A DNA stretch of 26,547 bases from a virus: the IMG/VR virus record IMGVR_UViG_3300028835_000846, positions 1 through 26,547 of that record; one strand, 5' to 3'. The position numbers were made by a program, and so were the translations under genes. Of this stretch, positions 24,159 through 25,859 are shown piece after piece (position 1 is the stretch's first letter; every line of letters starts with the position of its first letter). The notes under the pieces were generated by a model that searched no databases, was not told where the DNA came from, and saw only the letters and a list, made by a program, of their open reading frames with translations.

Positions 24159-24380
24159 TCACCCCTCCATTCCTAGTGCTTTCTTGAGAGCTTGCCAATC
24201 TTCACTGCCAATAAGTAAACACTTTGAGTCAACCATTATAGAATCCTCAACCACATCATGGCTCTTCAGCCACTCTACCAGCTTCCTTTGGGCACAAGCT
24301 GGACATCGGGGCAGACATCCAATCTTCCCAGATAGACCTTGAACAGTAGTGTGCCTTTCTATCACATCTTTAAGTTTCAT
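24159..24380 (-). CDS. Small Cys-containing phage protein, 73 aa
   Basis: It starts MKLKDVIERHTTVQGLSGKI and has GCLPRCPACAQRKLVEWLKS with three cysteines in a C-x3-C-x2-C pattern, then DSIMVDSKCLLIGSEDWQAL. Four cysteines in all could coordinate one metal. It has no clear family. The start ATG overlaps the helicase-loader stop (ATGA), and the SD (GGAGGAGCAAG) is inside that gene. A role tied to replication is possible from position only. Confidence 0.7.
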   Translation of the reverse strand: MKLKDVIERHTTVQGLSGKIGCLPRCPACAQRKLVEWLKSHDVVEDSIMVDSKCLLIGSEDWQALKKALGMEG

Positions 24381-25048
24381 CTTGCTCCTCCTTTTCTTCG
24401 GTAGCTTGATGCTTTAAGCACAAAAACCTTGCCCTCCATAAGCCTGTCGGCAATCCTCGGTAAAAGCTGGTCCATCGCCAGGTTACTCGTAATTATCGTG
24501 GGCAGCCCGTTGACATACCTGTGATCAATTATCTCGTCTAGTTTAGCCCCGGCCCACTCTGTCGTCTTCTCCGCACCGAGGTCGTCAAGAACCAATAAGC
24601 TACAAATCTTCACGAAGTTAATCAGCACATTCGGGTCCTCAACCTGGACACTCTCGAGCCCGGATGCCTGCTTCTGCGTATAGGCATTGTGGGCAGCATA
24701 GCCCCAACGAAGCTCATCAAGAAACGCCTCCACCTGGCGATAGGCTACAGTGCCTCGCCCTGTCTCAAGCCAATCCCAGGCTGCCGCTAGTGTCAGGTGC
24801 GTCTTCCCTGTTCCAGGTACACCCAAAAGGGATAGAAAATGATGTTCAGTCTTGCCAGAAGCAAACACCTTCATATAGTCGAGCACCTTTGACAAGGCAG
24901 ATATAGGCTTCCAGGTAAAAAAGCGATGCGTCTCCCGGGTTCGCAGGGGCAACCCCGATATTTTGCTTCGAATGTCTAATGTCTCCTGGTCTACCGGAGA
25001 GTCGGGTATCCCTCGATAGACACCAGGTAGTTCAGTTTTCCACACCAT
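24377..25048 (-). CDS. DnaC/IstB-like helicase loader ATPase, 223 aa
   Basis: This is an AAA+ protein with Walker A GVPGTGKTH (residues 76-84), Walker B LLVLDDLGAEKTTEW (151-165, acidic pair D155-D156), sensor 1 TIITSNLAM (184-192) and a Box VII-type Arg region RIADRLMEGK (198-207). The LDDLGAEKxTEW signature is characteristic of DnaC-type loaders. It probably delivers the host replicative helicase to the phage origin. The upstream gene is an O-like initiator, so the pair corresponds to lambda O and P, although this protein is DnaC-type and not P-type. It overlaps that gene by 17 nt. The N-terminal ~65 residues have no zinc motif. Confidence 0.88.
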   Translation of the reverse strand: MVWKTELPGVYRGIPDSPVDQETLDIRSKISGLPLRTRETHRFFTWKPISALSKVLDYMKVFASGKTEHHFLSLLGVPGTGKTHLTLAAAWDWLETGRGTVAYRQVEAFLDELRWGYAAHNAYTQKQASGLESVQVEDPNVLINFVKICSLLVLDDLGAEKTTEWAGAKLDEIIDHRYVNGLPTIITSNLAMDQLLPRIADRLMEGKVFVLKASSYRRKGGAR

Positions 25049-25859
25049 CTTCGGCCCCCCTTAAAGAATTCTCAAGCTCTTCGGTCGATGGTAACCGCCT
25101 CCCAGCCAGCGCTCCCCGTGGCGGGGGCCTAGTGTTTTCACGCCTAAATCCATCTGCTCTTGTTATCCAATTAAGTAGTGCCAACTTTGGGTTTTTTAGC
25201 TTGCGCTTCTCCCAATAGAGCCAAAACTTTTCAAGTTCGACTTTGAAGTCTATATGAGGGAATCTCAACTGTAGTTCCTCTTTGTAATTCTCAAAGGTCT
25301 GGTCCCTACTACTTCTTGATAAAGAAGTAGTAGTTTTCTTTAATGGGGGGTGGGGAGGTACCCCGCCCCTCCCCACCCCCCATTCTTTAGGCGTATCTGA
25401 TTTTGTATCTACAGTGTTTACCTTTTCGGTAAACTGGAGTTTACCTTTTCGGTAAACTTTTATTCCCTCTTTTGTTTCCCCTTTCGGTAAGTTTTGTTTG
25501 TTTGAATTAAGGTTGAGACTTACCAATTCGGTAAGCCTCTGGTGAGTATACCCTGTGGCCCGGGAGACCCGCCATTGGTCGAAGTCCTTGTTGAACGAAT
25601 ACACATTATCGTCCCGGAAGATTACCTTTGCCTCAGTTAGCCAGTCCAGTTGCGTTTTGACATGCCCTTCGCCAACCCCAACGACCTCAAAGGCACGCTG
25701 GTAAGGGATAAGAGCCGTTTTCTTACCGCAGCCCCAGGATAGCCGGAGGATCAGGTCAAGTATTCTCCGTTGCCGTTCCGTGAAGTGGCTCACCATAAGC
25801 TGCTCGTTTATCTTATGGGCTACCCTGAGGTGGGCATCCGTGGGTTGAGGATTCGCCAT
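25032..25859 (-). CDS. Phage O-like replication initiator carrying origin iterons, 275 aa
   Basis: The N-terminal ~100 residues form a winged-helix domain of the phage replication O type: HLRVAHKINEQLMVSHFTER, then RRILDLILRLSWGCGKKTAL, IPYQRAFEVVGVGEGHVKTQ and NVYSFNKDFDQW. The linker (about 105-190) is Lys/Thr/Gly-rich, and its DNA carries four iterons and two hairpins. The C-terminal ~85 residues (FENYKEELQLRFPHIDFKVE, EKFWLYWEKRKLKNPKLALL) are a typical helicase-loader-contact region. It would bind iterons and recruit the loader encoded next. Part of the linker, GVGRGGVPPHPP, exists because the DNA there is a perfect palindrome. Start ATG 25859 has an AAGGGAT SD from the upstream gene end. 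Confidence 0.86.
   Translation of the reverse strand: MANPQPTDAHLRVAHKINEQLMVSHFTERQRRILDLILRLSWGCGKKTALIPYQRAFEVVGVGEGHVKTQLDWLTEAKVIFRDDNVYSFNKDFDQWRVSRATGYTHQRLTELVSLNLNSNKQNLPKGETKEGIKVYRKGKLQFTEKVNTVDTKSDTPKEWGVGRGGVPPHPPLKKTTTSLSRSSRDQTFENYKEELQLRFPHIDFKVELEKFWLYWEKRKLKNPKLALLNWITRADGFRRENTRPPPRGALAGRRLPSTEELENSLRGAEDGVEN
25306..25333. repeat. Perfect 12-bp hairpin with 4-nt loop inside the initiator gene
   Basis: CTACTACTTCTT (25306-25317) and AAGAAGTAGTAG (25322-25333) are perfect complements around GATA. On the plus strand the stem is followed by TTTTCTTT, so it could terminate antisense transcription. On the coding strand no U-run follows. It lies 8 bp from a larger hairpin next to the iterons. 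Confidence 0.72.
25342..25384. repeat. Perfect 17-bp GC-rich palindrome near the origin iterons
   Basis: The arms at 25342-25358 (AATGGGGGGTGGGGAGG) and 25368-25384 (CCTCCCCACCCCCCATT) are exactly complementary with a 9-nt loop. The strand with the G-runs could also form a quadruplex. It encodes residues ~159-173 of the initiator. A coding palindrome of this length and GC content must be selected or very recent. Confidence 0.78.
25416..25536. repeat. Candidate replication origin: four dyad iterons in the initiator gene
   Basis: Two identical 19-bp iterons GTTTACCTTTTCGGTAAAC lie at 25416-25434 and 25439-25457. Each is a 7-bp inverted repeat (GTTTACC/GGTAAAC) around 5 nt. Diverged copies lie at 25474-25492 (15 of 19 identical) and 25518-25536 (14 of 19, arms CTTACC/GGTAAG perfect). 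Number, length, dyad symmetry and position in the linker of an O-like gene all match the lambda origin. The intervening DNA (25458-25515) is T-rich and could unwind. No other copy was noticed in the window. Confidence 0.8.

Follow-up and report, generated by a model that had tools for sequence, protein, structure and literature searches.

A candidate lambda/P22-type replication origin within a phage initiator gene, and recognition-helix residues that track its iterons

The 26,547-nt viral DNA analyzed here (the window) carries an array of dyad repeats inside the coding sequence of an O-type replication initiator, raising the question of whether these repeats form a replication origin and whether the initiator's own sequence tells which repeats it would recognize. 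Lambda O binds four inverted-repeat iterons located in its own gene beside an AT-rich tract (PMC7466680), and origin binding by lambda O resides in its N-terminal 162 residues (PMC2629481). The proteins of lambda, P22 and phage L seem to differ in the in-gene iterons that they bind (PMC8022706), and it has been described as unknown how much diversity a change in nucleic-acid-binding specificity takes in these phages (PMC2629481).

An initiator gene with iterons and an adjoining DnaC-like gene

On the minus strand, the gene at 25032-25859 encodes a protein of 275 amino acids matching Phage_rep_O (PF04492; E 3.4e-18, 66.4 bits against a curated cut-off of 28.7, residues 8-96) and phrog_16826 (E 2.6e-40). 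The AlphaFold2 model, made with an alignment of 37 sequences, predicts a winged-helix domain at residues ~9-120 (mean pLDDT above 90 at residues 11-110), a disordered linker at ~121-183 (below 50 at 133-166 and 174-183) and C-terminal helices at 189-243. Within the domain the model places helices at 9-23, 28-44, 54-60 and 106-120, a recognition helix at 64-76, whose codons occupy 25632-25670 on the minus strand, and wing strands at 80-83 and 86-89. Solved structures searched with the initiator sequence gave no meaningful match, and Foldseek comparison of the model with the PDB returned nothing below E 0.001, the weak matches being only winged-helix regulators and the DnaD N-terminal domain.

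The four dyad repeats that the first-pass annotation had placed at 25416-25536 are present, each 17-19 bp long and of the form TTTACC-N5-GGTAAA, and are encoded, as seen from the gene, on the minus strand over residues 109-148, i.e. from the last domain helix into the linker. In gene order, iteron 1 (25518-25536) reads GCTTACCGAATTGGTAAGT (ACTTACCAATTCGGTAAGC in window coordinates) and overlies the conserved codons LTELV; iteron 2 (25474-25492) reads ACTTACCGAAAGGGGAAAC (GTTTCCCCTTTCGGTAAGT) and has one degenerate half; iterons 3 (25439-25457) and 4 (25416-25434) are identical and read GTTTACCGAAAAGGTAAAC (GTTTACCTTTTCGGTAAAC). Counted from start to start, and beginning with iterons 3 and 4, the spacings are 23, 35 and 44 bp. 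The pattern TTACCNNTTCGGTAA, allowing up to 2 mismatches, matched the window five times, always within the array and once as a copy read in reverse, as compared with a mean of 0.43 and a maximum of 2 matches in shuffled sequences. No further good copy was detected elsewhere in the window, nor any exact copy outside the array in a 38.8-kb relative (G001) that contains the entire window at 99.99% identity. The peptide with which iteron 1 coincides, LTELVSLNL, is conserved and marks the end of the domain, so that a single stretch of DNA may serve both the protein fold and a binding site.

Directly downstream, overlapping the 3' end of the initiator gene, lies a gene (24377-25048, minus strand) for a DnaC/IstB-like AAA+ ATPase, a probable helicase loader. 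Its product matched PF01695 (E 2.6e-9) as well as phrog_50 (E 3e-36) and phrog_3277 (E 8e-20), both of which are DnaC-like helicase loader families. This neighbor is of the DnaC/IstB type and not of the P type, so that the locus would work in the manner of the lambda origin without qualifying as a strict lambda O-P module. The succession of an O gene and a DnaC-type loader, which had been singled out as a departure from lambda, is real but not novel: public annotations show it for Klebsiella phage 6 LV-2017, Morganella phage IME1369_01 and Brevibacillus phage Jimmer1.

Iteron arrays, their spacing and a putative unwinding element among relatives

Scans with an alignment of the domain yielded 35 viral and 19 genome loci and then 80 and 80 more, among them contigs of Syntrophomonas, Paenibacillus, Brevibacillus, Thermoactinomyces and Burkholderia; the genome contigs surfaced only with the alignment query, the initial protein search having returned none. 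From annotated records we added lambda, P22, phi80, Geobacillus phage GBK2, Jimmer1, Klebsiella phage 6 and Morganella phage IME1369_01. In most relatives the domain is immediately followed by three to eight dyad repeats (ten in one later example), usually with a run of A at the iteron center (CAAAACG, GAAAAG), lambda included. Arrays occupy the same position in lambda, P22 and phi80, and public records annotate the lambda iterons and the phi80 gp15 sites. We chose 62 related genes whose arrays share one register; their best array scores had a median of 37.5, as compared with 10.5 in synonymous shuffles. Start-to-start gaps across the family cluster with a periodicity of ~10.7 bp (22-23, 32-34, 42-45 and 54 bp), indicating that the 23, 35 and 44 bp of the window are helical-turn steps. 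The final pair of iterons is 23 bp apart in 40 of the 62 genes and likewise in lambda and P22. Hence the values reported earlier for a widening spacing were right, whereas the widening itself is no new feature but the helical phasing seen across the family.

No clear in-gene dyad array was seen in a Brevibacillus clade with N65-V66 (L069, L070, L074, L089-L091), whose iterons may take another form or whose origin may be at a different place. The domain also occurs in stand-alone versions of ~140 amino acids lacking a long linker, on plasmids of Bacillus velezensis and Cytobacillus (L307:1187-1624, L308:1223-1639), and these two plasmid replication proteins had no in-gene iterons and no clear array nearby. 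Outside initiators, paired TTACC-N5-GGTAA dyads were seen beside small helix-turn-helix repressor-like genes (L017, L020, L021, L024, L031), where they are probably repressor operators with a similar half-site.

Past the array, on the minus strand, a putative unwinding element comprises two motifs, TAAAGAA at 25383-25389 and TTAAAGA at 25337-25343, located 27 and 74 bp downstream of iteron 4 at distances typical of the family. Units of the TAAAGA type, single or several and often in tandem (TATTAAAGACAGTATTAAAGACAG...), follow the iterons in most relatives, and in a close relative (L050) the position of the second motif of the window is taken by three TAAAGAAAG units without interruption; lambda, P22 and the Klebsiella phage carry AAAAGACA at the position of the element. 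Within 200 bp past the last iteron the 62 genes contain 104 occurrences of TAAAGA[ACG], as compared with 29 expected from synonymous shuffling (maximum 44). The first of these is most often found 45-46 bp from the last iteron, other clusters being at 26-27 and 56-58 bp. Describing the A-rich element by one 28-base pattern proved too strict and gave no match.

The two motifs in the window are separated by a GC-rich perfect inverted repeat (25342-25384; 43 bp with 17-bp arms and a 9-nt loop), the strongest inverted repeat in the window. It includes a G-quadruplex-type tract, GGGGGGTGGGGAGGGGCGGGG, the only motif of its type in the 38.8-kb relative. No equivalent perfect hairpin was found at this position in the relatives compared; C-rich tracts without a hairpin do lie near the unwinding element in L003, L068, L075, P22 and Klebsiella phage 6, and these could simply be proline-rich linker codons. 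Directly downstream, at 25306-25333, we observed a second perfect inverted repeat, CTACTACTTCTT-N4-AAGAAGTAGTAG, which was likened to DnaA-trio repeats by eye only; TAGTAGTAG or ACTACTAGTAGTAG lies near the equivalent position in several relatives (L050, L057).

Comparison with characterized and annotated systems placed the locus further. The lambda origin in gene O shares the Phage_rep_O initiator, four dyad iterons directly past the DNA-binding domain, the 23-bp distance between the final two and an A-rich AAAAGA tract downstream; it differs in its half-site (TCCCTC as compared with TTACC) and in its P-type loader, and the N-terminal domains are ~20% identical. The iteron had been thought to be new in sequence, but P22 gene 18, whose in-gene repeats have been noted (PMC8022706), carries ATTTACCAGATCGGTAAAA at the same place. 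P22 shares the near-identical iteron TTTACC-N5-GGTAAA, four in-gene copies and an AAAAGACAATA tract downstream; its N-terminal domain is ~18% identical, its next gene encodes a DnaB-type helicase (12), and it has T65-K66 where the window has G65-H66. The N-terminal domain type itself is shared with Jimmer1 gp77/gp78 (48% identity) and with Paenibacillus, Thermoactinomyces and Syntrophomonas elements, with dyad TTAC iterons in the linker and, in Jimmer1, also a DnaC-like next gene. These elements mostly pair GTTAC half-sites with K64 or R64, unlike the CTTAC/TTTAC half-sites and E64 of the window. Klebsiella phage 6 LV-2017 and Morganella phage IME1369_01 have the same order of O-type initiator, in-gene iterons and DnaC-type gene but an N-terminal domain of the Gram-negative type, the former with TTACC half-sites at wider spacing and the latter with GTCTC half-sites.

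A probable in-gene origin

Taking homology, position, frame independence, the putative unwinding element and the arrays of relatives together, we conclude from the sequence that the window very probably contains a theta-replication origin of the lambda/P22 type inside a tailed-phage initiator gene, as the first-pass annotation had proposed. By analogy with lambda, two initiator winged-helix domains would bind each dyad iteron; recognition-helix residues 64-66 would then face n1, n3 and n4 in every n1-T-T-n3-n4 half-site. Successive iterons are separated by about 2, 3 and 4 helical turns, which would put the bound dimers on the same side of the DNA, and they may wrap it. The downstream A-rich TAAAGA tract would then melt, and the C-terminal part of the initiator would recruit the DnaC-like loader encoded next door, which would deliver the host replicative helicase. 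Counted against the origin are the 43-bp GC-rich palindrome interrupting the putative unwinding element, the position of iteron 1 on conserved codons and the weak half of iteron 2. GC skew was positive throughout the 38.8-kb relative, no sign change being found, and is therefore uninformative.

Repeats within a gene might be by-products of a repetitive linker peptide, and in some relatives (L016, L027, L029, L030) the iterons do encode in-frame VTESVT-like peptide repeats. The copies in the window, however, use all three reading frames and translate as four different peptides (LTELVS, LPKGET, VYRKGK and FTEKVN). The gene contains 3, 4 and 4 copies of the iteron motif at 0, 1 and 2 mismatches, as compared with means of 0.01, 0.13 and 0.63 and maxima of 1, 2 and 3 in 2000 synonymous-codon shuffles that kept the protein fixed and never recreated the array. 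Two or three frames are likewise used in 59 of the 62 related genes. The frame placement and the failure of the shuffles indicate that amino acids do not account for the repeats, as the first-pass annotation had allowed they might, and that these were selected as DNA, leaving the window gene with at least three frame-independent dyad iterons just past its DNA-binding domain. For copies 2-4 the peptide explanation is already refuted by this test; iteron 1 is the exception, since the conserved LTELV could contribute to its sequence, and for the array as a whole we give the by-product explanation practically no credence. It is somewhat less far-fetched, though still very improbable, that the repeats are operators for autorepression of the initiator at the level of transcription or translation. 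Plasmid initiators that bind iterons often autoregulate, and the initiator would bind the sites whether they were operators or an origin. Yet every copy lies 325-443 nt inside the gene and none upstream of it, for which reason we rejected a promoter operator, and the downstream TAAAGA element and the helical phasing are both common to the proven lambda origin. An origin of the known lambda/P22 in-gene type would best account for this arrangement.

Residues 64-66 and the bases of the half-site

The first-pass annotation had asked whether the iteron co-varies with the N-terminal domain, and it does. In 42 genes, domain distance correlated with half-site distance (Mantel rho 0.447; the maximum of 2000 permutations was 0.355). 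Two helix residues were linked to the variable bases by eye in this discovery set, and scanning every domain column against every base of n1-T-T-n3-n4 in the 62 genes ranked E64 top for base 1, G65 for base 3 and H66 for base 4 (numbering and residues of the window, codons 25662-25670, minus strand). At residue 64, K goes with G in 24/24 genes, R with G in 6/6 and E with C in 10/12. At residue 65, G goes with A (13/13), Q with C (9/9), N with C (8/9) and T with A (14/21), and at residue 66, N with T (13/13), D with G (9/9), K with C (7/7) and H with C (29/33). Three of the four H66 exceptions belong to a P-A-T-H group with CTTCAC and one to a mis-registered array (L032). The residue-66 pairings agree with canonical side-chain contacts, His or Lys to G, Asp to C and Asn to A, if these are made on the opposite strand.

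Genes outside the first 42, some of them close to discovery genes, fit at base 4 in 29/30, at base 3 in 24/28 and at base 1 in 19/20, whereas guessing the majority base gave 15/30 for each of bases 4 and 3; the pairings of residues 66 and 65 had been seen in the 42 genes, while the factorized form and the residue-64 rule drew on the wider set. New combinations fit additively: T-N with TTAT, N-N with TTCT, and T-D, G-D and V-D with TTAG. Once the rule had been fixed in writing, another scan and additional database searches brought only three new genes with clear arrays, which fit at base 4 in 3/3, at base 1 in 2/2 and at base 3 in 1/2. L295 (T65-N66, for which TTAT is predicted) had degenerate copies only and was left out of the counts. 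Exceptions to the code are P63-A64-T65-H66 with CTTCAC and, in Gram-positive types, T65-K66 with TTCC or TTGC; iterons 3 and 4 of the window have T at base 1, whereas E64 predicts C. Extended to lambda and phi80, the code did not fit in the same register.

Given that gene and iteron are inherited together, some association is expected from shared descent of whole genes, with no contact by residues 64-66, and the tree holds no more than about 9-12 changes for each base. When labels were simulated along a tree from which the helix columns had been left out, with the numbers of changes matched, the observed association was, however, not reached in any run (0/2000 at every one of the three bases), and the top z-scores among all columns belonged to E64 for base 1 (7.1), G65 for base 3 (5.4) and H66 for base 4 (11.3). 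In independent contrasts a change of base went with a change of the residue in 6/7 for base 4, 7/8 for base 3 and 8/11 for base 1, and close pairs such as L225/L224 switch jointly, N66/H66 with T/C. We therefore regard shared descent as an unlikely explanation of the co-variation, and one that would leave the origin reading standing. The comparison, which spans about a hundred relatives, points instead to three adjacent residues tracking the DNA letters of the site, and the O-type initiators of this group probably follow a compact, near-additive code in which each of three consecutive residues at the helix start would specify one half-site base.

In the part of the literature covered we found no earlier report of the residue code, of the shared TAAAGA element or of helical phasing across Gram-positive phages. 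The in-gene arrangement provides a matched protein-target pair in each genome, here resolved to three residues and three bases. Since nearly all initiator genes of this group contain binding sites for their own product, protein and target would co-evolve within one gene, and the code would become readable from sequence alone. The residue-base combinations are directly testable in vitro. For uncharacterized phages they would offer a rule for finding origins, leading from a Phage_rep_O gene through residues 64-66 to a predicted dyad.
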